Positions 1,780-26,266 of a stretch of DNA of 35,148 nt are shown here, one piece after another (position 1 is the first letter of the stretch; each line of letters opens with the position of its first letter). The DNA is taken from NCBI GenBank assembly GCA_013152585.1, contig JAADGC010000196.1, forward strand, positions 1 through 35,148, in the 5' to 3' direction. This DNA is from Chloroflexota bacterium (GTDB lineage Bacteria > Chloroflexota > Anaerolineae > J102). A model generated the notes under the pieces. The model saw only the letters and a list, made by a program, of their open reading frames with translations, was not told the DNA's origin and searched no databases. The position numbers and the translations under genes were made by a program.

Positions 1780-4700
1780 TTAACGACTGATGACGGGCAG
1801 GAAGAGCTTGCTGGCGATCACATCCACATAACCCGGCCAAACGTACACAGCCAGAGTGGTGCCGTGGATGTCGGCAAAGGTGCTGATGTCGGCGTTCAGG
1901 TCACTGGTGCTGCCGCTATCTCCCACGGCCCGGAAGGTGATCGCCGCCATATCCACGACCCCGCTGACACCCGCACCCGATAGCATGTTGAAGCGAACGG
2001 CGTCTGGTGACGTCCCGTCTTGCTCGTAGGCGATATTGCAGAGGTCGAAGTCGAAGCGGCTGTCGGGATCGGCCTGACAACTGAGGGGTTGAAGGACGGC
2101 GGGGTCGTAGCGGAGTTCGACTGCAACGGCGCCGAGCTTGTCCGCGCCCAGGTCGGCCGTGGTATGGATGGTCACTTCCTCACCGGGCAAGACCGTGGTT
2201 GCCTGCACCCGTACCGTGCTCGTCTGCGGCATGTCCACAACCATGGGCCCCAACTGGGGGGCTGCGAGGCTGACCGGACAGAGGGAGTTGGCGATGCCAG
2301 CATCACATTGGATGATGAAAAGGGCATCAACCGAATTACAGGCGGTATCGCCGCTGACATCGCAGTTGGGAAGATAGAGGGTGTCGGGGGCAGGAGGACA
2401 CTGGTCGCCAGCGCTGCGCAGTCCCACTTCGTATTGCAGGATGAAGAGGGCGTCGATGGGATCGACACGGGTGTCGCAGTTGACGTCGCCAGCCTGGCTG
2501 ACCACGCCCGAGAGGTTGATGAGGTTGTCGTTGTCACCCACGGGGATGGCAACACCGCCCGGATCGGCGAAGTTGAGGAGTTGGAGATCGAGAGTGCTGA
2601 AGGTGTTGGGCAGGCCAATCGCCTGGAATGTGACCTCGGCGAGGGGGTGATTGCCGTCGATGCCCAGGGCGCTGATCAGGCTGAGCCGCACGCTGTCGGG
2701 ATCAACGCCATTGTCATCGAAGGCGATGTTGCAATTGCCGAAGTCGAAGAGGGAATCGGGATCGGCGACGCAGGCGATGGGTTGCAGCACGTCCGGATCG
2801 TAGGCGAGTTCGATGCTGGCGGCGCTGACACCGGGAGCTGCCACATTGGCCATGTCGATGGTGACGGTGATGGTGTCGCCGGGGTCCACCAGGCCGCCGC
2901 TAACGCTGACGACCGCCTGCGAAGGCAGAGGGGTGCTGGTCGGTGTGGGAGTCGGCGTTGGCGTGGGTGTGTCGGTCGACGTGGGAGTCGGTGTGAATGT
3001 GGGTGTGTCGGTGGGGGTCGGTGTGAATGTGGGTGTGGGCGTGGGTGTCAAGGTGGGAGTGGGAGTATCTGTGGGCGTGAAGGTGGCGGTAGGAGTGGGC
3101 GTGGCGGTGGCATTGGCCCCGGCTTCGCAGGCCAGGATACTGACATCATCCACATACATCCAGGTGCGGCCATTGGCGCCGGTGCTGTTGTTATAGACTT
3201 CGAAGTAGAGTACCAGATTGCGGCCCTTGTAAGCATTCAGGTTGAAGCTGGCGTGCTTCCACACCCCATCATTCTCCAGCACCCGCATCAGCTCTTTGAC
3301 CTTGCCGTAGCTGGTGTTAAGCAGCATGACTCGTTGCCAATCATAGTTGCTGGCCTGGCTGTGGGGCTCGTACCAGAATTCGAGGGTGATGTTATCGACA
3401 TCGCTGGGGAAATGGATTGTCTGGTAGGCAGTGGAGTAGGAGGCGCCGCTGGGCAAGGGGTTGATCTCGGGCAGGAAGCGGGAGATGGGATCAGCCGCCG
3501 GAGGTAGCCCCAGTTGCCCGGAACGAGCGCCTGTGTGCGCGGTGTAGGTGGTGTAGCGGGCCCGGCTGGCGGTGTTGGGCATGGACCAGATGGCGCTATC
3601 TTCAAAGCCGCCGTTGCCCACGAGTTCGTAACAACTGGGGGCTGGGGTGCTCGTTGGCGTGGGGGTCGGCGTCGGGGTATCTGTGGGGGTGGGCGTCGGC
3701 GTATCGGTGGGAGTGGGCGTGTCCGTTGGTGTCGGGGTGGGCGTGTTTGTCGGCGTCAGTGTCGGCGTATCGGTGGGAGTGGGCGTGTCTGTTGGCGTCG
3801 GTGTCGGCGTGTCGGTGGCGGTGGGCGTGAAAGTGGGTGTATCAGTGGGGGTAGCGGTGGGCGTTGGCGTCGGTGTTGAGGTATCTGTGGGGGTGGGAGT
3901 GGGGGTGTCGGTCGCAGTGGGCGTAGCGGTGGGCGTGGCTGTGGGGGTAGGCGTGGGCGTATCTGTTGGCGTCGGCGTGGGCGTGTCGGTGGCGGTGGGC
4001 GTGGGGGTAGCCGTGGGCGGCGGCGCCTGCAATTCTATCTGCTGTAAATCGCCGTTGCTCGTCCACAGGCCGTCAGGGATCTCGAAGGCGAGGAGACCGT
4101 CGATGGTGAAGGTGATATCGTAGGGCGGGGTCAAGGCGGGATTGCGGTTGCAGGTGAGCAGGCCATAGACGCCAAGCTGGGTCACTAGCACGCTCCCGCA
4201 TTCACCGACGGAGTCGAAGGCTTTGACCTCGGCCCCGACCGGCAAAGGTTGGCCGTTGAGCAAGGAAGCCAACCCGTAGAAGTTGACCCATTCGGGGGGC
4301 TGTTGGGGAGAAGTAGTAGGCGTGGCTGTGGCTGTCGCCTGTACCGTGCCGGCGCTCAGTTCCAAGAGGAAAACGTCCCCGTTTTGTGACCACTGCCCGC
4401 TTTCGTTGGCTGGCGTGCCATCGATGGTGAAGGTGATGGGGTAGGGCGGCGTGAGGCCATCACGGCGGGAGCAGGCCAAAAGCCCGTATTCACCCGGAGA
4501 TTGCACGGTGTATTGGCCACATTCACCGACGGTGTCTTGGGCAGCGACAACAGCGCCAACAGGGATGGGCACGCCGTTCAGGGTGGAGTGCAGGCCGTAG
4601 AAGTTGACCCATTCGGGTGAGCCGCTGCCACCGCTGGGCGTAGGCGTGGGCGTGGCTGTGGCCTGGGTGGTGCCGGAAGACAGTTCTACAAGATGCAGAT

Positions 4701-5034
4701 CGCCGTTGGTCGTCCAGGTGCCGCTGCCGGTGGTGGGCTGGCCATCGATGGTGAAATGAATGGCGTAGGGTGGGGTGATGGCGGGATTGCGATCACAGGC
4801 CAGCAGGCCGTAGATGCCGGGCTCGCTGACAACGGTGCTACCGCAGGAGCCCAGGTCGTCATAGGCTGTCACGACTGCGCCCACGGGAAGGGGGGCGCCA
4901 TTCAGGGTGGAGTTGAGGCCATAGAAGTTGACCCACTCGGGTGCAGATTGGGCCACGCTGACGCCCGTCAATTGAGAGAACCCAAGCACGGCCACGCTTA
5001 TGAGCAAAAGAATGAGGTAGGTGCGGCGATTCAT
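1780..5034 (-). CDS. Giant secreted multimodular protein with cohesin and dockerin modules
   Basis: The 1084-residue product has a signal peptide (MNRR then a hydrophobic stretch, cleavage probably near AQS, about residue 30). Three copies of an about 88-residue WVNFYGL module follow (33-120, 141-229, 248-336), each with a CG...LLxC cysteine pair. Next come a Thr-Pro linker (338-466), a jelly-roll-like domain opening with LVGNGGFED and closing with [10 protein letters not shown] (468-636; MAM or carbohydrate-binding type), and a second linker (640-704). The C-terminal part is cohesin-like (706-846), a dockerin with two calcium half-sites [12 protein letters not shown] and [12 protein letters not shown] (849-920), a second cohesin-like domain (938-1073) and the tail KLFLPVISR. 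An upstream in-frame start at 5100 is rejected: AAGGAG lies 6 bases before the ATG at 5034 and the signal peptide begins there. The likely role is extracellular adhesion or scaffolding; no catalytic domain was recognised. It follows the 1528-aa gene after 102 bases, so they are probably co-transcribed. Confidence 0.85.
2275..2490 (-). other. Dockerin module of the 1084-aa protein
   Basis: Residues 849-920 hold two calcium-binding half-motifs of the dockerin type, each D-x-(N/S)-x-D-(x)6-D-like followed by ALFI(L/I)Q. The two halves are separated by a Cys/Pro-rich loop ([15 protein letters not shown]) longer than the usual dockerin linker. The module is flanked on both sides by cohesin-like domains of the same polypeptide. 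Confidence 0.75.
2923..3117 (-). repeat. Thr-Pro linker coding repeat, second block
   Basis: The DNA is a degenerate tandem array of GTGGGN/GTCGGN hexamers (plus-strand reading) encoding TPTPT, TDTPT and TFTPT units over residues 640-704. It separates the jelly-roll-like domain from the first cohesin-like domain. Such arrays are prone to length change by slippage. Confidence 0.85.
3637..4023 (-). repeat. Thr-Pro linker coding repeat, first block
   Basis: About 390 bases of degenerate hexamer repeat encode 129 residues of (TPTPT)(TDTPT)(TATPT) type, residues 338-466, between the three WVNFYG modules and the jelly-roll-like domain. Interspersed Asp residues sit mostly in TDTP units. The product is expected to be an extended, possibly O-glycosylated spacer. 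Confidence 0.85.
4027..4938 (-). repeat. Three tandem WVNFYG modules
   Basis: Three in-frame copies (4675-4938, 4348-4614, 4027-4293) encode modules with a shared pattern: EWVNFYGL, LNGxPxPVGA, a CG pair, YGLLxC, TPPYxIxFTIDG, then WxxNGD and a closing L/VEL. A fourth, diverged copy closes the neighbouring 1528-aa protein at 5179-5460. I do not know a family name for it. Confidence 0.85.
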
Positions 5035-5136: not shown

Positions 5137-8100
5137 TTAGCGGATGAACATGGGCATGAAGATGCGGCTACTGGCAGGGAGGACGTTCACTTCCTGACGG
5201 TCGTGATTCTTGGTCCAACGTGTCTGGCCGGGGCCGACGGTGAGCGCAGGCTGACCGTCGATCATGAAAGTGAGCGCTTCGCCGGGCAGGGCGCCATCGA
5301 TAGCCTCGGTGGTGGCATCATCGCCGTAGACGGGCATGATGCCGTAGCTGCCATCGGCATGGACGATGGCTTCGCCCACCAGCAGCCCAGAGGCGGTGTA
5401 TGCCTGGATGCGACTGCCCACAGGCGCCTGCGAGTTCAAGCCGTAGAAGTCGACCCACCGGCTGCTGGGATGAACGGCGCTGTCGGGAGCAGAGGCTGCT
5501 ACCACCTGGCTCTGGGCGGTGAGGACTGGGTAGAAGAGGGTGGCCGCTTGATCCATCCAGATCCAGTAGGCGTAGCCCGGTTTCATGACCGTGAGGGTGT
5601 TGATTGTGTCGGGTAGGTTGGGATAGAAGCTGAGGGCGCCGTTTTCATAGCCCAGCACGGCGCCATGCAAGCCGTCGATGCCAGCGAGTGCGGTGCGCAC
5701 AGAGACAGGTTGATCCGGCAGGTAGGGGATCAGATTCCAGCCCGGGCAGAGGTAGAGAGGTGTGTCGGGCGCCATTTGCCAACCGTAGGTGGTCAGCGAG
5801 GCGGCAGTGGTGGTCTTCAGCCAGTAGCCATGCCAACCGGTCAGCCATTGCAGGGTGCTGAGCATGGGCAGGGATGGATAGTAGCTGAGGCCACCTACGG
5901 CACACTCATAGCCCAAGGCCACTTCGGTCGAACTGAGTACCGGTTGCAAGACAGTGGAGATGTCGGGGTCGCCTGGCAGCATGGCTGTGCTGTAGAGGTT
6001 CCAGCCCTGGTCCAGGGCACGGGTGAGGGTGTCTTGGATGCGAGCGAAGGTATTGATGTAGAGGTCCTCGTCATGCCCCGGCGCATAGGTGTACTGCACA
6101 CGATCATTGTTGAGAGAGGTGGCAGGCTGGTAGGGAGCAGGATCGGGCTGGCAGGCGTAGTGATGATCACGATTCTCGGCCGCAGTCCAACTGCTGGTGA
6201 GCAGATAGAGCTGATCGGGCGAGAGACTGACCTCGGTATAGGCGTCAGGCATGGTGGCGAAGGGATAGACATCCCAGCTATCGGGCAATCGCAATTCCTG
6301 CAACTCGCCGGTGAAACGAGGTTCGATATTTTCGCTGAGGATGCGCATGGCCAGCGGCGGTCGCGCCATGATGCTGTCGGTGCCGGCACATTGGGGATCG
6401 TAGGCAAGAGGATTGGCGAAGTTCAGAGGATCGAGAGCGACGATGTCTTCGGCCACGGTGTGGTTCATGTTGAAGGGCGGGAGCATGGGCGCCTGGTAGC
6501 GGTCGAAGGGCATACCCTGGGGGCCGAAGAAGTAGCCCTCGAGCACCTGCGTGTCCTGCTCATTAACGAAAGTAGCTTCCTTGGGAACGGGCATGCGCAG
6601 GGTCAGGTATTTGAATTCGAAGCATTCGGGCAGGGTGTCGTTCACGTCACCGCTGCACGTGGGCGCCTCAGTGGTGGGAGCGTCGATGGCAACGACATTG
6701 TATTCGTGGCCGTCGACGAAGAAGCGTTTGAGATACCAGGGATCGCCGGGGGTGAGGTCGTGGGCACCGGCGCCGTTGTCGATGGCGCTATGCGCGGCAC
6801 CGAGGGCACGACCGATGGTAACGGTGGCGGTTTCGGTGAGGCTGTTGATGCCGGACACATACACGAACCAGGCACCTTGCACCTGGCCCAGATTATCACC
6901 ACCGGCCGGTATCTGGAAGACATTGACCTTATCCCGACCGACGATGCCCATCTCGCCCACCGAGTACGGCAGGGCGCTGCCAACGTGGGCCGGTTTGATG
7001 TCGTAGCCACCGCTGATGGGGTTGAGGCCGCCACCCGTGTTCCAGATTTGTAGTTGGGCCTGGCCGCCGTTGTTGCTGGTGACGTTTTCGAGGGTGACGA
7101 GATGATCGAGGAATTGGGCGCTGTCCCCGCGGGTAAGCGTGAGGTTTTCGACGGCAAACACCACGAGTTCATCGCCGCTGAGGGCGACGCCATCGTCATC
7201 AAGCTGATCGAGCTGGTTGTCACCATCGAAATCGGCCGAGATGCCGGTCAATTTGGCCAGGCTGACCTCGCTGTGGATGCGGGTGATGTCGGGAACGCCG
7301 TCGAAGTTGGCATCGTAGCTGGTGATGCCGTAGCCGTTGCTGGGCAGGAAGGCGGCCGGTAGCTCATAGGGAGCGGATGTCGTCGGTGCCGGCAGTTCTT
7401 CGGCGCCGGTAGCCATGGGGAAGGCAATGTTCGAGGAGCCCGGCTGGCCGTGGTCCGGCTGATCCTGGGTATTAAGAAGCATGGTGGTGCTTTCCAGCAT
7501 CAAGGCCGGGAAAGTATAGACGGTAGTGGGCGTAATCCCGTCGGTCGCTTCGAGAATCTTGTCGAGATTCGGCTCGTACCAGGCTCGCAGGTAGACCTTC
7601 TGGCGGGCATTGGCGCCCTCGCGGGAGATGTAGCGATAGAGATCGGCCAGCGTCTCGCCGGAATTACGGAATTCATTCATGTAGGCCGGATTGAAGGAGA
7701 GGGAATCGCCGGGTGGGGCCTGAACGTGTTTGGGGTTGAAGGGCGCCCACACGTCGGTGTAAGGTAGCGTCTCAACGGGATAGGCACCGTTGCTGCCGGG
7801 GTCGCTAACAGCAGCGCCAGGACCCATGCTGTCGTAGCCGAAGATACGGAGGCCGTTGGCGTCTTTGAGCAATTTGCCATCATGCGCCGGATCGTACCAG
7901 AAGCCCACACGGGCGCTGACATCAAGAGCGGGCAGGGTAGTGCGGAAATGCCCGGTAAAGAGGTAGAGATCAGGTTTGTTGGCTGTGCGCGCCGGTGCTG
8001 CATCGGGGAAGACGAATTCGGTGAAGAGATAGGGCAGGGTCCAGTTTTGCTGGCTGTACCAGTATTCGGCGCCTGTTCGCTCATCTTCGCCGAGCAGCTC

Positions 8101-9723
8101 TTTGTGCTCATTGAGCAGGCTCAGGTTAGGCTCCTCACGCACGTAGTAATGGAGCATCTCGCTGGGATCGGGATAGAGCATACCGGCGGGACTGGAGCTG
8201 CGATAGGCGCGGTAGGGGAAGGGGCCGTTTCGCTGCAAAATGGGAGCCAGCGGCCCGTAGAGCGTGCCCATTACCCGGGCATCATCCGCAGGATCGAGGA
8301 AGGGCACATCCAGCACATCATGCAGGGCGTAGTGTTCGTAGTTGAACGGCGGTAAGAGGCTGAGCCAGTCTTCGAATCTATAGGACTGGAGGCGCACCGA
8401 GTGGAGATCGATGGCTATTTCGCTCTTGGGCAAGGGAGTGCGTAAGGTAATGAAGCCAAATTGCTCAGGGCCGTTGCTGCCAATCGCCACGACATCGTAT
8501 TGGTGGCCATCGACATAGAAGCGTTTGAGGAACCAGGGATCGCCGGCTTGCCGGTCGATGACACCGGGTGCCGAGACCATGGCACTGAAAGGAGCCCCCA
8601 AAGCACGTCCCACCCGTAATTGCGCCATATTTTCTACAGTATCGACATTGGTGACCTGGATAAAGAAGGAACCTGCGGGCACGACGCCCATATTCGGGGC
8701 TTTGGTGCCCGGGAAATGACGGCCATACAGCCACAGATCGCCCTGCGAAATCACTTGTGAGCCCATAAAGAAGGGCGCCGAATCGCCCGTGTACCAGATA
8801 TCGACGGACACGCCGCTGTTGGTGACGCCTTTGAGCACTACCATGTGATCCAGGAACTGCACGGCCTGATTCAGGGTGCGGTCGACGGGATTGAGGGAAA
8901 ACACCGCCAGCTCGTCGCCACTGAGGGCATTGCCATCTGTATCGAGGTTATCCAGGTTGTTATCCCCATCGAAATCCGCCTGCACACCGGTTTTCTGGCT
9001 GAAGGTGGCTTCGCTATCGATCATGACGATATCAGGTTTACCGTCAAAATCACCATCGAGACTGGTGAGGCCGTAGCCATGGGGATCGAATGCCACCTGG
9101 CTATCGTTGACGAAGAGATCGCCGCCTCGCATACCCACGGGAAAGACGAAGCTGCTATTGCCGACCTGGCCATAAGCAGGCGGCGGCTGATTGGCACTGG
9201 CGCCGTATTGCACCAGTTGGTACGTATATTCCTGCATGATGGCCGGGCCCACGACATCGTTGCTGTCGGCTGAGCCGTTGCCATCGAGGTCAAGATAGAT
9301 ATTTTGCGGTTCATACCATTCCCGCAGGTTGACCTTTTCGGCCCCATTGACCGCGCCCAGGAAAATCTTGCTATACAATCCGTAGGCGTGGAGCTCGTCG
9401 AAGGATTCCAGCTCACTGAGCCAGGCTGGATCCCAGGTCACGAAATCCTTGGCGGGCGCCTGCGAACCGCTGGGGTCGGTAATAGACGCCAGGTCGGTGT
9501 AAGGCGCTTCTTCCGGCGTGATGTCCGTCACCGGATCATCTGAGACAGGGTTCCCTGCACCTTCGTTATCGTTGCCATAAAGGCGCAACGTATTGACGGT
9601 GATGGCATCTGGCGCCGATTGAGTGCCGGGAGCGGCTTGCACGAGCACGGCCCCAAACATCAGCAAAGCCAGTAGCAACAACAGGGTGAACCCAAGGGAG
9701 ATGGGTCGGGATTGATATTTCAT
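5137..9723 (-). CDS. Giant exported protein with an internal duplication, putative surface-layer or cell-wall protein
   Basis: The 1528-residue product starts with a signal peptide (MKYQSRP, hydrophobic core, cleavage near VQAAPG, about 30-32). Residues 74-610 and 653-1225 are diverged copies of one large unit. Shared landmarks are PYTD, KV(N/Y)LR(E/A)WYEP, an Asp-rich stretch with ADFDGDN and LSGDEL (calcium-loop-like), QFLDH, GRALGA, GDPW(F/Y)LKRF(Y/F)VDGH and LPPFN. Two copies of a GWNL domain follow (about 1237-1310 and 1326-1398, each ending in GYW- or YWI-type segments), then one WVDFYGL module (1422-1515) and the tail RIFMPMFIR. An in-frame start at 9807 is rejected because AGGAGG lies 7 bases before the ATG at 9723, where the signal peptide begins. 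The duplicated, Asp-rich architecture suggests a calcium-stabilised envelope layer, but I do not recognise the family. First gene of a likely two-gene operon. Confidence 0.8.
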   Translation of the reverse strand: MKYQSRPISLGFTLLLLLALLMFGAVLVQAAPGTQSAPDAITVNTLRLYGNDNEGAGNPVSDDPVTDITPEEAPYTDLASITDPSGSQAPAKDFVTWDPAWLSELESFDELHAYGLYSKIFLGAVNGAEKVNLREWYEPQNIYLDLDGNGSADSNDVVGPAIMQEYTYQLVQYGASANQPPPAYGQVGNSSFVFPVGMRGGDLFVNDSQVAFDPHGYGLTSLDGDFDGKPDIVMIDSEATFSQKTGVQADFDGDNNLDNLDTDGNALSGDELAVFSLNPVDRTLNQAVQFLDHMVVLKGVTNSGVSVDIWYTGDSAPFFMGSQVISQGDLWLYGRHFPGTKAPNMGVVPAGSFFIQVTNVDTVENMAQLRVGRALGAPFSAMVSAPGVIDRQAGDPWFLKRFYVDGHQYDVVAIGSNGPEQFGFITLRTPLPKSEIAIDLHSVRLQSYRFEDWLSLLPPFNYEHYALHDVLDVPFLDPADDARVMGTLYGPLAPILQRNGPFPYRAYRSSSPAGMLYPDPSEMLHYYVREEPNLSLLNEHKELLGEDERTGAEYWYSQQNWTLPYLFTEFVFPDAAPARTANKPDLYLFTGHFRTTLPALDVSARVGFWYDPAHDGKLLKDANGLRIFGYDSMGPGAAVSDPGSNGAYPVETLPYTDVWAPFNPKHVQAPPGDSLSFNPAYMNEFRNSGETLADLYRYISREGANARQKVYLRAWYEPNLDKILEATDGITPTTVYTFPALMLESTTMLLNTQDQPDHGQPGSSNIAFPMATGAEELPAPTTSAPYELPAAFLPSNGYGITSYDANFDGVPDITRIHSEVSLAKLTGISADFDGDNQLDQLDDDGVALSGDELVVFAVENLTLTRGDSAQFLDHLVTLENVTSNNGGQAQLQIWNTGGGLNPISGGYDIKPAHVGSALPYSVGEMGIVGRDKVNVFQIPAGGDNLGQVQGAWFVYVSGINSLTETATVTIGRALGAAHSAIDNGAGAHDLTPGDPWYLKRFFVDGHEYNVVAIDAPTTEAPTCSGDVNDTLPECFEFKYLTLRMPVPKEATFVNEQDTQVLEGYFFGPQGMPFDRYQAPMLPPFNMNHTVAEDIVALDPLNFANPLAYDPQCAGTDSIMARPPLAMRILSENIEPRFTGELQELRLPDSWDVYPFATMPDAYTEVSLSPDQLYLLTSSWTAAENRDHHYACQPDPAPYQPATSLNNDRVQYTYAPGHDEDLYINTFARIQDTLTRALDQGWNLYSTAMLPGDPDISTVLQPVLSSTEVALGYECAVGGLSYYPSLPMLSTLQWLTGWHGYWLKTTTAASLTTYGWQMAPDTPLYLCPGWNLIPYLPDQPVSVRTALAGIDGLHGAVLGYENGALSFYPNLPDTINTLTVMKPGYAYWIWMDQAATLFYPVLTAQSQVVAASAPDSAVHPSSRWVDFYGLNSQAPVGSRIQAYTASGLLVGEAIVHADGSYGIMPVYGDDATTEAIDGALPGEALTFMIDGQPALTVGPGQTRWTKNHDRQEVNVLPASSRIFMPMFIR
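5527..6015 (-). repeat. Two tandem GWNL domains
   Basis: Residues 1237-1310 and 1326-1398 each start with GWNL, continue with a valine/leucine-rich segment, an L-G-Y-E strand, S-(Y/F)-Y-P-(S/N)-L-P and an aromatic G-Y-x-(Y)-W end. Single or paired domains of this look are common near the C-terminus of secreted proteins in this type of bacterium. The function is unknown to me. Confidence 0.65.
6049..9504 (-). repeat. Large internal duplication in the 1528-aa protein
   Basis: The protein segments encoded by 7894-9504 and 6049-7767 align over most of their length (about 540-570 residues each) through the shared landmarks listed for the gene. The second copy lost the DLDGNGSADSND calcium-loop-like segment found at 146-156 of the first and gained a CSGDVNDTLPEC insertion at about 1023-1034. 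Confidence 0.8.
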
Positions 9724-10097
9724 GCTGTTTCCTCCTACACCAGAAGAGTATGGTGAGCCAAATGGATCGACCAGTGTCTCGATTTTCTCGCTTGTAAGAA
9801 CTCCCATAACGGAACAAACACGTTTCCGCCGGCGAACAAGTCTTTTTACCGGGCAGGAATTCTCATAGTGGTTGACCAGAGCGGCAAAGAATAAAAACTA
9901 TTTGAGTGAACACATGACAGGATTGGCCCGACGAAATAGGGCATCCGTCAAACAGATAGACGGCAAGTTCTGGCGAAAGTTACGGTCAAAGTTTGGAGTT
10001 CGTGCCCCCTGTTTTTTCTTGATCGGTCTCTGATGCGGATGAATGTGGTGCTACGGCATTTCAGCGCCGGATAAAAAACCAACGACCATCCCCCATA
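9724..10097. other. Upstream region of the giant-protein operon, no gene seen
   Basis: About 370 bases separate the start of the 1528-aa gene from the terminator of the pilin gene. It should contain the operon's promoter and leader on the minus strand. I see a CGCCGGCG palindrome (9827-9834) but no convincing -35/-10 pair, no riboswitch I can name, and no open frame with a ribosome site. Confidence 0.5.
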
Positions 10098-11619: not shown

Positions 11620-11649
11620 ATTATACCTTTTGCCCAATCGCATGTACAA
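11620..11649 (-). promoter_or_regulatory. Probable promoter of the M20 fragment and phosphatase genes
   Basis: On the minus strand TTGTAC (11649-11644) is followed after 18 bases by a perfect TATAAT (11625-11620), 68 bases ahead of the start at 11552. The -35 is only half-consensus. The remainder of 11553-11875 is the divergent spacer shared with the lipid kinase gene and holds no other gene. Confidence 0.45.
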
Positions 11650-11875
11650 TACATCATCTCTCCGGCAAGGCATGCCCGCTCCCAATCATGGCCATCGAGT
11701 CGTACCGCTGCCGGGATCAGAGGCACATCGTTGTTTGTCTGGAATTCGCCTCCGAGAGGTGTCCACCGCAATTTCGGTGCCGGCAGCACTTCTGGCCCTC
11801 TCACGGAGCTCAAAAACGGGAACTCATTTTTACACGATTCTTTATTCTGCATTTATCACGACAAAGGAGAAGCTG

Positions 11876-12793
11876 ATGCCCTCGACAATCGTTATTTTTA
11901 ATCCATTCGCCAACCGTGGTGACAGCCAGCATCAGATCGATCTGGGCCTGCAATCGCTGGCCACCAGCGGCCTCGATTTCGAAGTCAGACTGACCGAATA
12001 TCCCGGCCATGGCATAGAACTGGCCTTGACCGCTGTCCGTGACGGTGCCACCACGATCATCGCCGCCGGGGGCGACGGCACCGTGCACGAAGTGGCGAAC
12101 GGCATCCTCAAGGCGGCCGAAGGCATGGAAGGTGTGGCGCCGACAACGCTGGGGGTATTGCCTGTGGGCAGCGGCAATGATTTCGCCTGGGGCCTGGGGA
12201 TCGATCAGGGTTTAGATGATGCCATCGCTCGTATCCGTCTGGGCCATACCCGCATCATCGATGTAGCCCAGGTGGAGACCGACGTGTCCGAGCCCCGCTA
12301 TTGCGTGAATATGTTGGGCGGTGGCTTTGATGCCCGGGTCAATGTCGAGGCGCACAAAATCAAGCGCTTGCGTGGCTTCGCCATCTACATTGTGGCCGTG
12401 CTCAAAACCCTGGCCATCTACTATCGTCACCCCCCCACCACGATCCGCTACGACGATCAGGAAAAGACCTTCTCCATGCTCATGGGCCTGGTGGCGAATG
12501 GGCTGCGCGTGGGCGGCGGCTTTCTGGCCACACCCAACGCCCTCTACGACGACGGCCTGCTCGACCTGTGCCTGGTGGAGAAAACCACCCGCTGGGACAT
12601 GCTGCGCATGATTCCCCAGTTCATGAAAGGCCAGCATCTCGACCATCCTAAAGTCACGATGGCCCGCTCTCACAAAGTGCACTTTAGCTGCCAACAAGGT
12701 TTTCCAGCTCAGCTCGATGGCGAGATGGTGGGCTTGAGTGTCAAAGACATGCAGATTGAAATCATCCCCCAACGGTTACGTGTGATTGTATGA
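11876..12793 (+). CDS. Diacylglycerol kinase-family lipid kinase (YegS/DgkB type)
   Basis: 305 residues, the normal size. The ATP-binding motif GGDGT lies at 65-69 (IIAAGGDGTVHEVANG), followed by LPVGSGNDFAWGL (95-107) and a C-terminal beta-rich substrate domain with ALYDDGLLDL. The family phosphorylates diacylglycerol or related lipids with ATP at the membrane, recycling diacylglycerol to phosphatidate. The start at 11876 is chosen because AAAGGAG lies just upstream and MPSTIVIFNPFA is the family's usual first strand; the frame is open further upstream to 11630 but that part resembles nothing. Its stop overlaps the next gene by four bases (ATGA), coupling it to plsY, which acts in the same phospholipid pathway. 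Confidence 0.9.
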   Translation: MPSTIVIFNPFANRGDSQHQIDLGLQSLATSGLDFEVRLTEYPGHGIELALTAVRDGATTIIAAGGDGTVHEVANGILKAAEGMEGVAPTTLGVLPVGSGNDFAWGLGIDQGLDDAIARIRLGHTRIIDVAQVETDVSEPRYCVNMLGGGFDARVNVEAHKIKRLRGFAIYIVAVLKTLAIYYRHPPTTIRYDDQEKTFSMLMGLVANGLRVGGGFLATPNALYDDGLLDLCLVEKTTRWDMLRMIPQFMKGQHLDHPKVTMARSHKVHFSCQQGFPAQLDGEMVGLSVKDMQIEIIPQRLRVIV

Positions 12794-13368
12794 ACGGCCT
12801 CTCCCTGTGGAACATCCTCTTTGCCCTGCTGGCGGGCTATCTTATCGGTTCCTTCCCCACAGGGGTGGTGCTGGCGCGTGTGCTGCGCGGCCCTGACCCG
12901 CGCACGGCTGGCAGTGGGCACACGGGCGGCTCCAATATGCTGCGTACCAGTGGCTTGGTTCCGGCCCTGATCACCGGGGCATTCGATGTGCTCAAAGGCC
13001 TGCTGGCCGTGTGGCTGGTGCTGCGCCTGATTCCCAACCCATGGGTGATTCCCCTGGTGGGCACGGCCGCTGTAGCCGGGCACTGCTGGTCGGCCTTTGC
13101 CGGATTGAAGGGCGGCATGGGCATTGCCACGGGGCTGGGCCTCGGCGTGTGGTTCTTCCCCCTGGCTGTCCTCATCCTGGGCCTTTTCTTTTTGCTTTTG
13201 CAGCGTTTCATCCGCCATCGGGCCCGCGCCATGATGATCGTGGCCGCACTGATTCCCATGGTGCTGTTGGTACTGGGCAGCCGGGGAACTGATTTTCTGC
13301 TTGGCGTCGGTGTGGCCACCGTGCTCATCATCCGCTTTGCCAGTGATTTCAATCGTGTGTACTCATAA
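12790..13368 (+). CDS. plsY: Glycerol-3-phosphate acyltransferase PlsY
   Basis: 192 residues with at least five hydrophobic segments and the three conserved cytoplasmic motifs of PlsY: GSFPTGVVLAR (20-30), GSGHTGGSNMLRTSG (42-56, usually GSGNxGATNxxR) and GHCWSAFAGLKGGMG (97-111, usually GHxxxxFLxFKGGKG). It should move the acyl group from acyl-phosphate to the 1-position of glycerol-3-phosphate at the inner face of the membrane. Two motif changes are visible: His for Asn in the second motif and Met for Lys in the KGGK of the third. It overlaps the lipid kinase gene by ATGA. Confidence 0.88.
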   Translation: MNGLSLWNILFALLAGYLIGSFPTGVVLARVLRGPDPRTAGSGHTGGSNMLRTSGLVPALITGAFDVLKGLLAVWLVLRLIPNPWVIPLVGTAAVAGHCWSAFAGLKGGMGIATGLGLGVWFFPLAVLILGLFFLLLQRFIRHRARAMMIVAALIPMVLLVLGSRGTDFLLGVGVATVLIIRFASDFNRVYS

Positions 13369-13395
13369 CCCCTCTACTCCCCGATTCCCCACCCC

Positions 13396-13432
13396 TTGAC
13401 TTTTCCCCGCTCTCCGGCTCATCGGCTATAAT
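13396..13432 (+). promoter_or_regulatory. Possible promoter of the carboxylase cluster
   Basis: A perfect -10 box TATAAT (13427-13432) lies about 60 bases before the carboxyltransferase start. TTGACT (13396-13401) is the nearest -35-like element, but the spacing is 25 bases, well over the usual 17, so recognition may depend on the -10 or an activator. Confidence 0.4.
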
Positions 13433-13492
13433 GCGACTATTATTCCCCCACATCCCATTCATCACTCACTTATTGCCCCCGAGAATCAGGGT

Positions 13493-15043
13493 ATGAACAA
13501 CAACGAGCGCATCCAATATCTGCACGAAATGAGGGCGAAATCGCTCCTGGGTGGCGGCGAAGAACGCATCAAGCGCCAACACCAGAAGGGTAAATATACC
13601 GCCCGTGAACGCCTGGAGCTCTTGCTCGATAAAGGCTCCTTCCGCGAACTGGATTCTTTTGTGACCCACCGCAGCCATGACTTTGGGATGACCGACAATC
13701 GTCCCCTGGGCGATGGCGTGGTCACAGGCTACGGCACCGTGGACGGTCGTCTGGTCTATGTGTATTCGCAGGACTTCACCGTTTTTGGCGGTGCACTTTC
13801 GGAAACGTATGCCGAAAAAATCGTCAAAATTATGGACATGGCCATGCGCAATGGCGCCCCCATCATCGGGCTCAACGATTCGGGCGGGGCCCGAATCCAG
13901 GAAGGGGTGGTGTCTTTAGGCGGCTATGCCGAGATATTCCTGCGCAACACCCTGGCCTCAGGCGTCATCCCCCAGCTTTCGATCATCATGGGCCCTTGTG
14001 CGGGCGGTGCTGTTTATTCGCCTGCCATCACCGATTTTATCTGCATGGTCAAAAACACCTCGCACATGTTCGTCACCGGCCCCGAAGTCGTCAAGACGGT
14101 CACCCACGAAGACGTGAGTATGGAAGAATTAGGTGGGGCACTCACACATGGCGCCAAAAGCGGTGTCTCGCATTTTGTAGCCGAAAATGAAGAAGAAGCC
14201 ATCTTCATGATGCAGCAACTGCTTTCATACCTGCCCCAAAACAATCTCGAAGATCCACCTACCGTGCCCACCACTGACGATCCTATGCGTCAGGACCCCC
14301 AGTTGGATGAGATTGTGCCCGACCATCCTCACAAGCCCTACGATATGCACGAAGTCATCCAGCGCATCGTCGATGACGGACAATTCCTGGAAGTACACGA
14401 GAACTACGCCATGAACATCCTTGTGGGTTTTGCCCGTCTGGGCGAGCGCAGCGTGGGCATTGTCGCCCAGCAGCCCTCCGTGCTGGCAGGGGTGTTGGAT
14501 ATCGACGCCTCTGTCAAGGGCGGACGCTTCGTACGCTTCTGCGATGCCTTCAACATCCCCATCATCACCTTCGAAGACGTGCCCGGCTTTTTGCCCGGTG
14601 TGACCCAGGAACACGGAGGCATCATCCGCAACGGAGCCAAATTGCTCTACGCCTACTGCGAAGCCACCGTGCCCAAGATCACGGTAATCACCCGCAAAGC
14701 CTACGGCGGAGCCTACTGCGTGATGAACTCCAAACACATCCGCGGCGATCTGGTGCTGGCGTGGCCCACGGCCGAGATCGCGGTCATGGGCCCCGAAGGC
14801 GCTGTCAACGTCATCTATCGCCGCCAGTTGGCCGAGGCCGACGATCCCACCACCCTGCGTTCGCAACTGGTGGCCGAATATCGCCAAAAATTCGCCAATC
14901 CCTACGTGGCAGCCTCGCGTGGTTATATCGACGATGTCATCGAACCCCACACCACCCGCCCCCGCCTGATCAACGCCCTGGAAATGTTGCGCAACAAGCG
15001 CGATACGAATCCGTTCAAAAAGCACGGAAACATCCCCCTGTAA
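13493..15043 (+). CDS. pccB: Acyl-CoA (propionyl-CoA) carboxylase carboxyltransferase subunit
   Basis: 516 residues, the usual length of the beta subunit. N- and C-terminal crotonase-like halves carry the two oxyanion-hole regions: [14 protein letters not shown] (126-139) with [16 protein letters not shown] (167-182), and [20 protein letters not shown] (361-380) with [10 protein letters not shown] (402-411). It transfers carboxyl from carboxybiotin to an acyl-CoA; the epimerase and mutase nearby point to propionyl-CoA. The residue matching the specificity Asp of actinobacterial PccB (Asp422, in AYGGAYD) is Cys409 here, so acetyl-CoA or mixed use is possible. The start codon is preceded only by a weak AGGG. 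First gene of the carboxylase cluster, preceded by a TATAAT box. Confidence 0.93.
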
Positions 15044-15121
15044 GCTGATAAAAGGGTAAACCGGGTGACCGGTTAGGTGAAAACCGGGCTTTGCCAGCCT
15101 GGTTTACGGGTCTATCGGCTT
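15042..15121 (+). promoter_or_regulatory. Multi-hairpin intergenic leader
   Basis: Arms 15042-15065 and 15098-15121 match as an imperfect 24-base inverted repeat (18 of 24 pairs). Inside, AACCGG (15059-15064), CCGGTT (15069-15074) and AACCGG (15082-15087) allow two mutually exclusive hairpins that share the middle segment. It begins within the carboxyltransferase stop and ends before the next gene. The layout would suit an attenuator or RNA-processing site; no named riboswitch is recognised and no T-run follows. Confidence 0.4.
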
Positions 15122-15175
15122 ATCGGATTCCCATTCTGCCCCGAACCCTTCCTTATTTCTTTACCCACCCCCCTT

Positions 15176-15757
15176 ATGTCAAATATGATGCTGCGGCTGG
15201 ATGCCACCACCCTGCAAAAACGGGGCTACCTGGGCCTGAAAGTCGCTGAGATACACGAAATCGTCATCCTCAGCGAACTGACCAGCCCGGGCGTGGCCGG
15301 AGATGCCCAAAACTGGTGTGCCCCGGCAGCCGCCGGCAGTCCAAGTCTCAAGCATCTGGGACTGGCCCAATATGCCTACTACGCCCCAGTGCAGGAAACA
15401 TGGCTGCCGCAACCTGATCGTCTGCCCTTGCAATACAGCATTCTGGGCACCCATCCCCCCCTGAGCCTGGTTAACATCCGGGATGAGGAAGAGGGTGCCT
15501 GGGGGCCTGAGGTCGACGGGTGGGTGTACGGGCTGACAGCCCTGCGCCTGAGTTGGCCCGAGCTCAACGAAGTCCCAATCAGCACCGTCGTCCCCGTCGT
15601 CATCACCGGTATCCAACGTCTGATCCTCCAACCCGGCCCCATGTTTGGCCAGATCACGTCCCTGTCGGCGCTTCCGCCTGCGCCCCTGGGTCCCGACCTG
15701 GTGGTCGTTGAAGTGCAACAGAGGGACGGACTCAAGATCAGGTCACCGCACCGCTAA
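15176..15757 (+). CDS. Hypothetical protein within the acyl-CoA carboxylase cluster
   Basis: 193 residues from ATG 15176 (MSNMMLRLDATTLQKRGY). I do not recognise the family. It is rich in short hydrophobic strands (HEIVILSEL, VVPVVITGIQRLIL, DLVVVEVQQ) and has no signal peptide, membrane helix or catalytic motif I can point to. The frame stays open upstream to 15077, but that stretch overlaps the hairpin region and adds a Pro/Cys-rich lead that looks non-coding. A long opposite-strand frame covers the same DNA; I prefer the plus strand because it matches the direction and spacing of its neighbours and ends 7 bases before the biotin carboxylase start. There is no clear ribosome site, which lowers confidence. 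Confidence 0.55.
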   Translation: MSNMMLRLDATTLQKRGYLGLKVAEIHEIVILSELTSPGVAGDAQNWCAPAAAGSPSLKHLGLAQYAYYAPVQETWLPQPDRLPLQYSILGTHPPLSLVNIRDEEEGAWGPEVDGWVYGLTALRLSWPELNEVPISTVVPVVITGIQRLILQPGPMFGQITSLSALPPAPLGPDLVVVEVQQRDGLKIRSPHR

Positions 15758-15764
15758 AAATCTT

Positions 15765-17273
15765 ATGTTCCAAAAAATTCTCGTTGCCAACCGGGGCGAA
15801 ATCGCCGTCCGCATCATCCGCGCCTGTCAGGAGCGCGGCATCCGCACGGTCGCCGTCTATTCCGACGCCGATCGCTCGGCCTTACACGTGCGCTACGCCG
15901 ACGAAGCCTATCACATCGGCCCGCCACCGGCCCGCGACAGTTATCTGCGGGGCGATACTCTCATCGACGTGGCCCGCCGGGCCGGCGCCGATGCTATCCA
16001 TCCCGGATACGGCTTCCTGGCCGAAAATGCCGCCTTCGCTGCGGCCTGCGCCGATGCCGGCATTGTCTTTATTGGCCCCACGGCCGCTGCCATCGCCACC
16101 ATGGGCGATAAAACCACGGCCCGGGAGACAGTCGCCAGAGCCGGTGTCCCCCTGGTGCCAGGCACAACCAAAGATCTCAGGGATGACGAACTGGCGGCTG
16201 CAGCCGAGCGCCTGGGCTACCCCATCCTGGTCAAGGCCAGTGCCGGGGGCGGCGGCAAAGGCATGCGCCTGGTACAGGAGGAGGCTGAACTCAAATCGGC
16301 CCTGGGTGCAGCCCGCCGGGAAGCGCTGGCCGCTTTTGGGGATGGGAGCATCTATCTCGAAAAGGCGATCACCGCCGCCCGGCACATCGAAATCCAGATT
16401 TTGGCCGATGCGCACGGCAACGTCATCCACCTGGGCGAACGCGAATGCTCCATCCAGCGCCGACACCAAAAGCTGGTGGAAGAAGCGCCCTCCGTGGCGG
16501 TGTCGCCGGAACTGCGGGCCGAGATGGGCGCCATCGCCGTGGCGGCCGCCCGCGCAGTCGACTACCAATCGGCAGGCACCGTCGAGTTCCTCGTGGACAA
16601 AGACGGCAGCTACTATTTTCTGGAAATGAACACCCGCCTGCAGGTCGAACATCCTGTCACCGAACTGGTCACGGGCGTCGACATCGTCAAGGAGATGATC
16701 TCCATCGCCAATGGCCGCCGCCTGCGCCTGCGCCAGGAAGATGTGACCATGAAAGGATGGGCCATCGAATGCCGTATCACCGCCGAAGATTCCGAAAACG
16801 ACTTCATGCCCGCGGGCGGCACCATCGTCTCGTTGCGCGAGCCCACCGGCCCCGGCATCCGCGTCGAATCGGGTATCTACGAAGGCTTCGACGTCCCCCT
16901 GTTTTATGATCCCATGATCGCCAAGCTGATTGTGTGGGGAGAAAGCCGGGCCGATGCCATCATGCGCATGAGGCGGGCGCTGAGTGAATACCGCATTGCC
17001 GGTATCAAGACCACCATTCCTTTCCATCTGGCGCTCATGGACAACCCCCGTTTTCAGTGGGGCCAGATCGACACCAACTTCCTGGACACGCACACACCGG
17101 TCACCCACCCCGATATCGAGCAACAACAAAAACAGGCGGCGCTGGTGGCCGCTATGCTGCGCCACGAACGAGGGCTGCGCGCCATCAACATCAGTCATGG
17201 CGCCGAACTCGAACACGGCCAGAGTGCCTGGCGCCGTTCGGCCCTGCTCAACGGCCTCCGATCTCTGCTTTAG
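15765..17273 (+). CDS. accC: Biotin carboxylase subunit of acyl-CoA carboxylase
   Basis: 502 residues, slightly longer than the about 450 of E. coli AccC and typical of acyl-CoA carboxylase A subunits without a carrier domain. The start MFQKILVANRGEIAVRIIRA is the family's. ATP-grasp elements follow: the glycine loop KASAGGGGKGMR (157-168), ECSIQRRHQK (227-236) with the bicarbonate/biotin-site residues, and EMNTRLQVEHPVTE (287-300) with the metal-binding Glu and catalytic Arg. It carboxylates the biotin of the carrier protein using ATP and bicarbonate. The partner carrier starts 11 bases later and the carboxyltransferase is two genes upstream, so all three activities are present on separate chains. 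The extra C-terminal 50 residues (QQQKQAALVAAM) are helical and of unknown role. Confidence 0.95.
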   Translation: MFQKILVANRGEIAVRIIRACQERGIRTVAVYSDADRSALHVRYADEAYHIGPPPARDSYLRGDTLIDVARRAGADAIHPGYGFLAENAAFAAACADAGIVFIGPTAAAIATMGDKTTARETVARAGVPLVPGTTKDLRDDELAAAAERLGYPILVKASAGGGGKGMRLVQEEAELKSALGAARREALAAFGDGSIYLEKAITAARHIEIQILADAHGNVIHLGERECSIQRRHQKLVEEAPSVAVSPELRAEMGAIAVAAARAVDYQSAGTVEFLVDKDGSYYFLEMNTRLQVEHPVTELVTGVDIVKEMISIANGRRLRLRQEDVTMKGWAIECRITAEDSENDFMPAGGTIVSLREPTGPGIRVESGIYEGFDVPLFYDPMIAKLIVWGESRADAIMRMRRALSEYRIAGIKTTIPFHLALMDNPRFQWGQIDTNFLDTHTPVTHPDIEQQQKQAALVAAMLRHERGLRAINISHGAELEHGQSAWRRSALLNGLRSLL

Positions 17274-17284
17274 GTTCGCATCCC

Positions 17285-17782
17285 ATGAAATACGAAGCGC
17301 AAATTGCCGCTACCACTTACGAAATCGAAATTGACGACGACGGCGTCATCACCTTCGAAGGTCATCCCATCGCAGCGGATCTGCTGCAGGTGGGGCCCCT
17401 GGGCCTGTACTCCCTCATTGTCGACAACCGCTCGGTGGAGCTGGTGGTGGAAGAAACGCAGTGGGGATACCGAATCATGTTCGGGGGCAATGCCATCGAT
17501 GTGCGCGTAGTCGACGAACGCCAGTTGCGTCTGGCCGGCCGCCGCACCGACTTACTCATCCCCACCGGTGAGGTCGCTGTCAAAGCACCGATCCCGGGCA
17601 TGATCGTCCGTGTACTGGTCAGCGAAGGCGATGTGGTGGAACTAAACCAGCCGGTTGTGCTCCTCGAAGCCATGAAAATGGAGAACGAACTGCGCGCCCC
17701 TCGCCCGGGCACCGTCACCGGCATCAAGGTGCAGGCCGGTGAAAGCGTGGATCAGGGCACGCCATTGCTGACATTGCACTAA
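17285..17782 (+). CDS. Biotin carboxyl carrier protein of acyl-CoA carboxylase
   Basis: 165 residues. The C-terminal half is a biotinyl/lipoyl domain: [18 protein letters not shown] (99-116), then EAMKMENE (128-135) with the biotinylated Lys131, and a closing APRPGTV...GTPLLTL. The N-terminal half (about 1-90) is a beta-rich domain like the BT domain that docks carriers on acyl-CoA carboxylases. The start at 17285 gives a family-like N-terminus ([16 protein letters not shown]); a longer upstream frame overlaps the biotin carboxylase gene and is rejected. It carries carboxybiotin from the carboxylase to the carboxyltransferase. It ends 23 bases before the mutase gene. Confidence 0.93.
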
Positions 17783-17805
17783 CCGCCATCATCAGCGAAA
17801 CAGCC

Positions 17806-19476
17806 ATGACCAAACCATCCCCACCACTGGCCGACGCCCTTTCCCGCTGGGAAGACACCACCCTGCGGCCCACACTTGCCCGCCATCCCGAGCGCAAAGA
17901 CCGTTTTCAGACCTCGTCCGGCATAACAGTCAACCGCCTCTACCTGCCACCAGCCGATGACGAATATCTGCAAAAGCAGGGACTTCCGGGCGCCTACCCT
18001 TTTACGCGCGGGGTGCAGCCCACCATGTACCGCGGGCGCTTGTGGACCATGCGCCAATATGCCGGTTTCGGCTCTGCCGCCCAAACCAATCAGCGTTTTA
18101 AGTACCTGCTGGCGCAGGGACAGACCGGTCTCTCCGTAGCTTTTGACCTGCCCACGCAAATCGGCTATGACGCCGACCATCCCCTGGCCGCGGGCGAAGT
18201 CGGCAAAGTGGGTGTCTCCATCTCCTCGTTGGCTGATATGGAAATCCTGCTGGCGGGCATTCCTCTGGATCAGGTCTCGGTGTCGATGACCATCAATGCG
18301 CCGGCCAGCATCCTCCTGGCCATGGTGCTGGGCGTGGCCCAAAAACAAGGCGTCGAGCCCGCCCACCTGCGCGGCACCGTGCAAAACGATATTCTCAAAG
18401 AATACGTTGCCCGCGGCACCTACATCTACCCTCCCCGCCACTCCATGCGCCTGATCACCGATCTCTTTAGTTATTGTAACCAAAATATGCGGCGCTGGAA
18501 CACCATCAGCATCAGTGGCTATCACATTCGGGAAGCAGGTTCCACCGCCGTGCAAGAAGTGGCTTTTACCCTGGCCAACGGCATAGCCTATGTGCGGGCG
18601 GCCCTGGCGGTCGGCCTCGATATCGACGATTTTGCCGCCCAGCTTTCCTTCTTCTTCAACGCCCACAACAACTTCCTGGAAGAGATCGCCAAATTCCGGG
18701 CGGCCCGGCGCCTGTGGGCCCGCATCATGCGTGAGCAATTCGGCGCCCGCAGGCCCCGCTCGTGGATGTTGCGCTTCCACACCCAAACCGGTGGCTCCAC
18801 CCTCACCGCCCAACAACCCCAAAACAATATCGTACGCGTGACCCTGCAAGCACTGGCGGCCGTCATGGGGGGCACGCAAAGCCTGCACACCAATTCTATG
18901 GACGAAGCCCTGTCGCTGCCCACCGAAAAGGCCGTGCGCACGGCCCTGCGCACGCAACAAATCCTGGCCTACGAATCCGGCGTGGCCGACACCGTCGATC
19001 CGCTGGCCGGCGCCTACTTTATCGAATATCTGACCGATGAAATCGAACGCCAGGCGAGTGAGACCATCGAGCGGATCGAGGCCATGGGTGGGGCAGTGCA
19101 GGCCGTCGAGCAAGGCACCATCCAGCGTGAAATCCAGAACGCCGCCTATCAGACCCAGCAGGCCATCGAATCGGGTCAGGAGATCGTGGTGGGGGTGAAT
19201 CGCTTCCAGGTGACCGAAGAGGCGGCGCCCAAGATCATGCGGATGGATGCCAGCGCCCAGGAAGCGCAAATCGCCAGCGTGCGTGCGCTCAAGGCCCAAC
19301 GTGATCGCCGGCGCGTGGCCGAATTATTGACCCGCATCGAGAACGCCGCCCGTGATGCACAGGCTCCGCTCCTGCCTCTTTTCGTCGAGGCCGTACAAGA
19401 GTACGTCACCCTGGGCGAGATATCCGATGTGCTGCGCCAGGTCTTCGGCGAATATCAGGCCCCCACGTTGCTTTAG
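17806..19476 (+). CDS. Methylmalonyl-CoA mutase, catalytic (alpha/N-terminal) subunit
   Basis: 556 residues: the TIM-barrel catalytic part only. Recognisable blocks are [17 protein letters not shown] (73-89), [10 protein letters not shown] (113-122), [21 protein letters not shown] (190-210), [13 protein letters not shown] (234-246) and [20 protein letters not shown] (283-302). Tyr85 and Arg203 sit where methylmalonyl-CoA mutase has Tyr89 and Arg207 (P. shermanii numbering); isobutyryl-CoA mutases carry Phe and Gln there. His240 matches catalytic His244. The chain stops near the end of the barrel domain, so the about 130-residue cobalamin-binding domain (DxHxxG motif) must be a separate protein. 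None is in the window. It converts (R)-methylmalonyl-CoA to succinyl-CoA and vice versa. Confidence 0.93.
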
Positions 19477-19510
19477 TTTCGCTTGCACAGTGTCAGACAC
19501 TCTAAGTGAA

Positions 19511-19717
19511 CGTCTAAAAATTACTTTTCGTTTTGCTCTCGCTGACTGAAAGTCAGGCTCTTCAGGCCTGCGGCCAGGAGTCGGCCTTCGCCGACGATCG
19601 GACGACGATGGCCGATTCGCGGCACAAAGCGTCCAAAGAGCCCGAGCCTGCCCTCGAGTGCCGTGAAGGGTACCCCCGGCCAACGTCAGCCCCAAAAAGG
19701 AAAGTTATTCCTGGACG
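19511..19717. repeat. MITE-like element with imperfect terminal inverted repeats
   Basis: Left arm 19511-19546 (CGTCTAAAAATTACTTTT...GCTGAC) and right arm 19685-19717 (GTCAGC...AAAGTTATTCCTGGACG) match as an imperfect inverted repeat of about 33-36 bases. Between them lie smaller hairpins such as GTCGGC-CTTC-GCCGAC near 19580. There is no coding frame with a ribosome site. The whole gap 19477-19817 between the mutase and thioesterase genes is otherwise gene-free. Confidence 0.45.
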
Positions 19718-19720
19718 CTT

Positions 19721-19817
19721 ACTAACGCAGAGAGACAGAAAGCGCAGAGTTTAAGAGATATTGCCAACGAGAGCATTATACACCGCAATTCGCATTCCGC
19801 ATTCCGCAATTCTTCCC
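19721..19817. repeat. Degenerate intergenic repeat remnants
   Basis: The stretch ACTAACGCAGAGAGACAGAAAG resembles a worn copy of the ACGCAGAGACGCAAAG-type intergenic repeat seen in many environmental genomes. It is followed by a short tandem (CGCATTC, CGCATTC, CGCAATTC at about 19790-19812) ending directly before the thioesterase start. A similar trace, CGCCAAGACGCAAAG, lies at about 20375-20388 after the same gene. Confidence 0.4.
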
Positions 19818-20339
19818 ATGCCAACCCCTTACGACACCATCAACCGACACACCGCCGAAAAACAGTACAATTCCCGCATGTGCTTCGTGTGCGGGGTCGA
19901 AAATCCCGCCGGACTCCATGCCCACTTCTACCAGGCCGAGCCTCAGACCTGCGTGGGCCGTTTTCTGCCCGCAGCCCAGCATCAGGGCTATCCCGGACGC
20001 GTGCATGGCGGCGTGGTGGCCGCCATGATGGACGAAACCCTGGGCCGGGCCGTGTGGGGCGACGCCAGCACCTGGGGCGTCACCGCCGAACTCACCCTGC
20101 GCTACAAAGCGCCCGTGCCCCTGGGCCAGATGCTCACCGTGGTCGGGCGCATCACCAGCAACCGGCGCCGCCTGTTTACGGCCGAGGGTGAACTGCTGCT
20201 GGCCGACGGCACCGTAGCCGTGGTGGCTCACGGCAAATTCGTCAAGCTCGATCTTGGTCAAATTTTGGAGGATGAAAGCGCTCTGGACCCGAATAGCGAA
20301 CTTTTTATCATTCCTGACCCCAATGAACCGTCGCCCTGA
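19818..20339 (+). CDS. PaaI-type hotdog-fold thioesterase
   Basis: 173 residues from ATG 19818. The hotdog signature is RVHGGVVAAMMDETLG (61-76), with the HGG turn and the DE pair used by PaaI/4HBT-like enzymes on the central helix; it is followed by LRYKAPVPLGQ and GRI...EGELLLADGTVAV strands. An N-terminal C-F-V-C-G segment (22-26) recurs in this subfamily. It should hydrolyse an acyl-CoA thioester, and its place between mutase and epimerase suggests clearing an acyl-CoA of this pathway, which is inference. An in-frame start at 19761 would begin inside the CGCATTC repeat and is rejected. Confidence 0.85.
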   Translation: MPTPYDTINRHTAEKQYNSRMCFVCGVENPAGLHAHFYQAEPQTCVGRFLPAAQHQGYPGRVHGGVVAAMMDETLGRAVWGDASTWGVTAELTLRYKAPVPLGQMLTVVGRITSNRRRLFTAEGELLLADGTVAVVAHGKFVKLDLGQILEDESALDPNSELFIIPDPNEPSP

Positions 20340-20473
20340 GCAAGCGCTCGCCATTAGACGAAAAAAGCTCTCTCGCCAAGACGCAAAGCAGAAAAGAGGC
20401 ATTTTGCATTCTTGCTGACCCTCCACCTTCGTTCAGGACATGTTTGGCGAGAACACCTCACGGAACAATCACC

Positions 20474-23144: not shown

Positions 23145-23146
23145 CC

Positions 23147-23530: not shown

Positions 23531-23615
23531 GAGGCTCTTTTGGAACTCAGGGGGTACATTGTGACCTCCTGAGATGCGATTAAAGCGGAACACCACTTTC
23601 CCAGCCGAAGCTCAT

Positions 23616-23644
23616 TTGACACATTTTGACATCCATGGTAATTT
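23616..23644 (+). promoter_or_regulatory. Possible promoter of the amino-acid ABC transporter operon
   Basis: TTGACA (23616-23621) and, after 17 bases, TAATTT (23639-23644) form a weak sigma70-like pair; a second TTGACA lies at 23626-23631. They are about 185 bases before the binding-protein start. The rest of 23531-23827 shows GC-rich inverted segments but no gene. Confidence 0.35.
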
Positions 23645-23827
23645 GGGGACGCTGCTGGGGCAACCGTCGCCGTTTTGGAGTGACACCGGCGCTAACGGTT
23701 CGCCTTGCAGGGCAAAACTTGCATTAGGGTTCATTCAGGATCCATACCATGCCACATCTGGCCGGGCACGTGTTAGGACCCTGGTATTTTTCAATCTCTC
23801 CACTTTCCTTAAAAGGAGGAAACTCAG

Positions 23828-24907: not shown

Positions 24908-24926
24908 ACTTGCTTTCTGAACCGAT

Positions 24927-24953: not shown

Positions 24954-25082
24954 GTTGCATAGCAGCGCCCACGCGAAGGTGGCCAACGGCTGGGCTAGGT
25001 GATAAAATCGGCTTTGTACGTTGGCCTTGCGGATTGGGCGTTCATTGTTTTCTGGATTCTGCGTTCAACATAGGGTAATGCC

Positions 25083-26264: not shown

Positions 26265-26266
26265 CC

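Follow-up and report, generated by a model that had tools for sequence, protein, structure and literature searches.

To our knowledge, little has been described of the proteins at the outer surface of Chloroflexota and methane-cycling archaea. Two kinds of described system come closest to the locus analyzed here. The S-layer tiles of the Methanosarcinales (tandem DUF1608, PF07752; MA0829, 3u2g) are exported and contain two tandem copies of a beta-rich domain, as does the protein described below, and they are found in the same archaeal genomes as its family. In the cellulosome-type and the ANME non-cellulosomal systems (PMC9012536, PMC5244752), a dockerin protein has its cohesin partner encoded next door and an anchor module resides on a partner, an arrangement that recurs in the present family, and the ANME dockerin and cohesin proteins have been discussed in connection with cell-cell contact.

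A duplicated exported protein

The window, the whole stretch of 35,148 nucleotides of a Chloroflexota bacterium that was analyzed, encodes on its minus strand (9723→5137) an exported protein of 1528 amino acids; all features located below in this gene and in its downstream neighbor lie on the same strand. The reading frame stays open from 9807 to 5137 (1556 amino acids), and the likely start codon is the ATG at 9723, which is preceded by a Shine-Dalgarno-like taggagg (9731-9737). The interval given in the original prediction, 6049-9504, falls inside this gene and covers only its inner part, residues ~102-1253 of the 1556-residue frame. The export proposed there agrees with a clear signal peptide, MKYQSRPISLGFTLLLLLALLMFGAVLVQAA (9631-9723), which, as with the taggagg motif, was read from the sequence. 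The rest of the protein comprises unit A (7849-9591, including the linking strand GFWYDP...; placed by alignment and the two-unit AlphaFold model), unit B (6037-7905, starting at the linking strand; placed by alignment and AlphaFold model), a tandem pair of 'GWNL...GYW' modules (5530-6033), a PapC_C-like domain (WVDFYGLNS..., 5185-5496) and the C-terminal tail IFMPMFIR (5140-5163), which has counterparts at the ends of many Chloroflexota members of the family.

Units A and B are each ~550-600 residues long, mostly beta, and contain conserved Asp-rich loops. Alignment of the two halves bears out the duplication that had been proposed, with 36% identity over 460 columns (BLASTP E=1e-63) and a local alignment score of 621, against a mean of 44, a standard deviation of 6.2 and a maximum of 74 in 200 shuffles. 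The motifs named in the original prediction are all present in both copies, including GDPW(F/Y)LKRF (GDPWFLKRF at 8518-8544 in A, GDPWYLKRF at 6721-6747 in B), QFLDH, LSGDEL and the loop ADFDGDN (8959-8979 in A, 7216-7236 in B), and the Asp-rich loops are conserved in both units as it had stated. One calcium-like loop was said to be lost from the second copy, and this loop, DLDGNGSAD after WYEP (9265-9291 in unit A), is found in 25 of 26 Chloroflexota A copies and in none of the 26 B copies. The Cys-containing insertion of unit B (CSGDVNDTLPEC, 6622-6657), also taken as a sign of specialization, is real and largely private to the window protein, with C417 in one and C428 in eight of the 26 B copies. 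A lineage-wide B-specific Cys pair is found instead at unit residues 506 (26/26 B) and 585 (25/26 B), spanning 6151-6390 in the window and occurring in 0/26 A copies of Chloroflexota. On the evidence of the Asp-rich loop and the Cys pair, in which the two differ, the Chloroflexota A and B copies have specialized, as had been suggested.

Family, fold and the enzyme alternative

The full window protein matches nothing in Pfam at E<=0.1, in NCBIfam or among PDB sequences, and a profile of 25 unit copies gives nothing significant against the PDB and only weak, mixed matches against Pfam. No such protein is named in those portions of the literature on Methanosarcina surfaces and Chloroflexota envelopes that were consulted. 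AlphaFold2 yields confident, mostly beta models for unit B (pLDDT 88.4, pTM 0.91) and for A and B together (pLDDT 90.0, pTM 0.88). Fold prediction had been proposed as a check, with an enzyme fold as the outcome that would speak against a surface-layer subunit; Foldseek comparison of the unit B and two-unit models with 350,542 PDB chains turns up nothing at E<=0.001, enzymes included, which argues against any known enzyme fold. The unit B model also finds no match among viral models, and the simple reading of these comparisons, which covered PDB chains and viral models, is that the predicted unit fold is new.

These results bear on the idea that the two-unit protein acts outside the cell as an enzyme of new fold, for instance on carbohydrates or peptides, and is borne by a cohesin-dockerin complex like that of cellulosomes. 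Dockerins classically carry enzymes, as in known cellulosomes, and several polar residues (D67, K103, D267, R366, D398, R437, D487) are invariant over 91 unit copies. However, Pro, Gly, Val or Tyr occupies over half of the invariant positions, the units stay paired in nearly all lineages, and neither a Pfam or NCBIfam enzyme family nor a PDB fold is matched, so that an enzymatic function appears distinctly unlikely.

Distribution and history of the family

Full-length relatives found by whole-genome searches are 62% identical in a genome of the same taxonomic family and ~42-54% identical in other families of the class. Of 396 genomes sampled from the class to which the window belongs, 25 contain the protein family, as do only two of 400 in a sample of the whole phylum, and no match was found in a genome of the same genus (G001, 85% complete). 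A scan of named genomes matched one Chloroflexota MAG and one ANME-2 archaeon, the homologue in the latter having a single unit and a C-terminal tail that resembles a dockerin. In the class of this archaeon, Methanosarcinia, 24 of 238 genomes contain the family, mostly as proteins of two tandem units and typically 1136-1270 amino acids, while in its phylum 30 of 393 genomes do, more divergent two-unit proteins among them. Members are nearly always two-unit proteins, and the archaeal set is patchy. Searches of viral contigs and plasmids found no relatives, and together with the lack of a fold match among viral models this led to rejection of a viral or plasmid origin.

In a tree built from 91 unit copies by a quick search, with SH-aLRT as the only support measure, no bootstrap and long branches flagged, the 26 Chloroflexota A copies fall in one fully supported group and the 26 B copies in another. 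The archaeal copies pair inside their own lineages and, in five genomes, inside the same protein. The AU test on this quick tree without bootstrap rejects a history in which one ancient A/B duplication served the entire family (p-AU 3e-5), indicating that the two-unit state arose, or was homogenized, several times. Such recurrence is to be anticipated if having two units in a chain is important.

Several family members have unusual architectures. Two genomes, G055 and G472, contain several two-unit paralogues each, of 2000-3800 amino acids (loci L029-L031; L127, L134, L138). Long Thr/Pro/Ser linkers and repeats of the type 'NLGDVPLxxVxVTD' occur in some of them. At L133 (6915-15856, genome G528) a two-unit gene extends over separate frames and is broken or mis-assembled. 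In the two-unit homologue of a divergent archaeon (L175, 5886-10544), a stretch inserted into the first unit (LFLVVDSSQNL...) looks von Willebrand A-like from its sequence only.

Relation to S-layer proteins

The original prediction favored a surface-layer subunit, and the features on which it relied, export, duplication and Asp-rich loops, are all present; the lattice role fares less well, as the archaeal genomes tested have DUF1608 proteins and the family is patchy. That no S-layer family would be recognized is confirmed by the Pfam and NCBIfam scans, and neither the window protein nor any of 25 family members scanned with Pfam matches PF07752 (DUF1608). As the main S-layer protein of this bacterium, forming its paracrystalline lattice, the window protein would have suitable size, signal peptide, tandem duplication and Asp-rich loops. 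It has the tandem domains behind a signal peptide that characterize DUF1608 tile proteins, and PMC12369344 describes the same combination in the Methanosarcina tile. DUF1608 S-layer proteins were not found in the four Chloroflexota genomes tested. Codon adaptation of the two-unit gene, which is a poor guide to abundance where G+C content is high and is measured here against a small background set of loci, equals or exceeds the mean of ribosomal proteins in six of six genomes and is higher than that of the DUF1608 tile gene in three of three archaea.

Against this reading, all 14 family-bearing archaeal genomes tested have DUF1608 S-layer proteins, ten of them including tandem tile proteins of ~880-910 amino acids, so that the family is something additional there. 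Its patchy presence, the same-genus genome without a match and the several paralogues in each of G055 and G472 also speak against a main lattice protein. The unit profile is unlike DUF1608 (hhalign against 14 DUF1608 units, <1% probability), and 3u2g, the highest-probability match among those listed for the two-unit model by Foldseek, stands at rank 4 with E=0.06 and probability 0.25, a suggestive resemblance that is not significant; for the single-unit model it is absent from the best 50 matches. Homology to DUF1608 is rejected by the profile comparison, the 3u2g match being non-significant. The two-unit protein cannot be filed as an S-layer protein and is quite unlikely to form the main lattice of this bacterium, but it may work like an S-layer protein in some Chloroflexota. 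The dockerins and cohesins found in its relatives suggest a surface complex that is tethered or assembled on a scaffold.

Neighboring genes and shared modules

The next gene, 106 bp downstream (1780-5034), encodes a protein with a signal peptide, Thr/Pro-rich linkers and the tail LFLPVISR. It contains three PapC_C-like domains (approximately 3970-4960) followed by a cohesin (PF00963, 2620-2892), a dockerin (PF00404, 2308-2493) and a second cohesin, and so provides a cohesin-bearing partner next door. Neither a dockerin nor a cohesin occurs in the two-unit protein of the window itself. Elsewhere in the window (11630-28288) lie ordinary metabolic genes, for diacylglycerol kinase, glycerol-3-phosphate acyltransferase, a carboxyltransferase, biotin carboxylase, methylmalonyl-CoA mutase, TsaD and an amino-acid-type ABC transporter.

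In Methanosarcinia, a dockerin lies C-terminal to the units at 20 of 20 loci according to a profile built in this analysis, and of four two-unit proteins scanned with the Pfam dockerin model, three are confirmed. At all 20 loci 2-3 cohesins are encoded by the next gene, which usually lies ~26 bp downstream, most with GWNL modules, the cohesins of two such genes having been scanned and confirmed with Pfam. A further gene, present at each of the 17 loci where the contig reaches it, has a product that combines a PapC_C-like domain with a hydrophobic segment at the C-terminus. In most two-unit proteins of Chloroflexota, a dockerin and a cohesin are part of the protein itself. The gene that follows there usually encodes a cohesin with three LysM domains, a PapC_C-like domain with three LysM domains, or a cohesin alone. 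These differences in placement among loci indicate that the same modules have been shuffled between partners.

Comparison with hhalign shows the bacterial PapC_C-like domains to be homologous to those of the ANME-2 archaeon (97%, E 1.8e-11), and the same probably holds for the GWNL modules (84%). The GWNL module, which has no Pfam match in the window protein, is common to many exported proteins of relatives and to archaeal homologues; it was seen in many proteins of related genomes (window 5530-6033; G000:C162:729-1238) and also in cohesin proteins of archaea. C-terminal tails that follow the pattern [YFW][LM]P[LIVM]..[RK] (window 5140-5163 and 1783-1806) close many exported Chloroflexota proteins at many loci and are possibly a sorting or anchoring signal.

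The cohesin-dockerin pattern was checked on 15 further loci outside the set that gave it. Three fit at least partly, L181 fully, L184 with cohesins next door and L185 with a dockerin gene nearby. At the other 12, mostly of divergent archaea, no dockerin or cohesin was detected by the profiles used, and a universal dockerin-cohesin wiring was rejected on this basis. Most of the 12 non-fitting two-unit proteins end in GWNL-like modules, as the window protein has, and several neighboring proteins end in sequences that read as PGF-CTERM-like anchors. The combination of two units, a display module and a neighboring anchor is therefore more general, with the cohesin-dockerin joint being specific to certain clades.

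Because its relatives lie beside genes for wall or membrane anchors, the protein is probably a tethered building block of the outer surface, and neither an ordinary enzyme nor one of the known S-layer proteins. The two-unit protein would be exported by the general pathway, and its units probably fold around Ca2+, as suggested by the DFDGD and DANFDG loops that are well conserved in the bacterial copies. Both units would then form one body displayed outside the cell and held at the surface by the C-terminal modules and the product of the next gene. The partners would attach this body through LysM domains to the bacterial wall and through membrane segments in archaea, and the joints, judged from their domain families, would be cohesin-dockerin or GWNL/PapC_C-like parts. 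Methanosarcinia and most Chloroflexota would couple a dockerin on the two-unit protein to cohesins on the neighbor, with the product of a further gene anchored in the membrane in archaea. In the window variant, GWNL and PapC_C-like modules sit on the two-unit protein, and further PapC_C-like domains and the cohesin-dockerin-cohesin array on its neighbor. Candidate roles of the displayed body include covering, cross-linking or adhesion.

An alternative emphasis is that the protein is an adhesin or receptor for a polysaccharide, a mineral or a partner cell, and that the anchors only present it. The assembly from modules, among them PapC_C-like, Ig-type, cohesin, dockerin and LysM domains, is consistent with such a function, as is the presence of the family in an ANME-2 archaeon, a member of a group living in consortia. 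No lectin or carbohydrate-binding family scores above its cut-off, however, and a dedicated adhesin is the less likely outcome, at somewhat under one chance in three by our judgment. It overlaps with the preferred reading, which leaves a structural or adhesive function open. Taken together, the data favor, with moderate confidence, a structural or adhesive surface subunit that is tethered by neighboring anchor proteins and is probably not an enzyme.

Comparison with known systems

It is plausible, though at somewhat less than even chances, that the family represents a class of surface block not described before, which has a new fold and members in both Bacteria and Archaea. In this reading, the pair of tandem ~550-residue units has been re-made repeatedly and is hung on the envelope by domain-specific anchors (LysM in Chloroflexota, membrane partners in archaea) via cohesin-dockerin or GWNL/PapC_C-like joints. 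A family that lies outside Pfam and NCBIfam and beside anchors in two domains of life is a concrete candidate for building or decorating the envelope, and its neighboring genes name the predicted binding partners of the two-unit protein. With its several separate origins or homogenizations, the two-unit state also lends itself to the question of why tandem duplication is so common among surface subunits.

The unit of this family is twice as long as that of the Methanosarcinales tiles and has neither profile similarity to it nor a significant fold match, and the family has dockerin or GWNL modules whereas the tiles have a C-terminal membrane helix. The PapC_C-like modules are related to PF13953, the domains in the window's neighbor and in the neighbor of one relative scoring weakly, below the Pfam gathering score, and the C-terminal domain of the window protein is of the same type; neither an usher barrel nor a chaperone context accompanies these modules. 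Compared with the cellulosome-type and ANME cohesin-dockerin systems, the window variant has its dockerin and cohesins in the neighbor only, and the payload of the family is an undescribed two-unit domain rather than a known enzyme, a substrate-binding protein or DUF1608.
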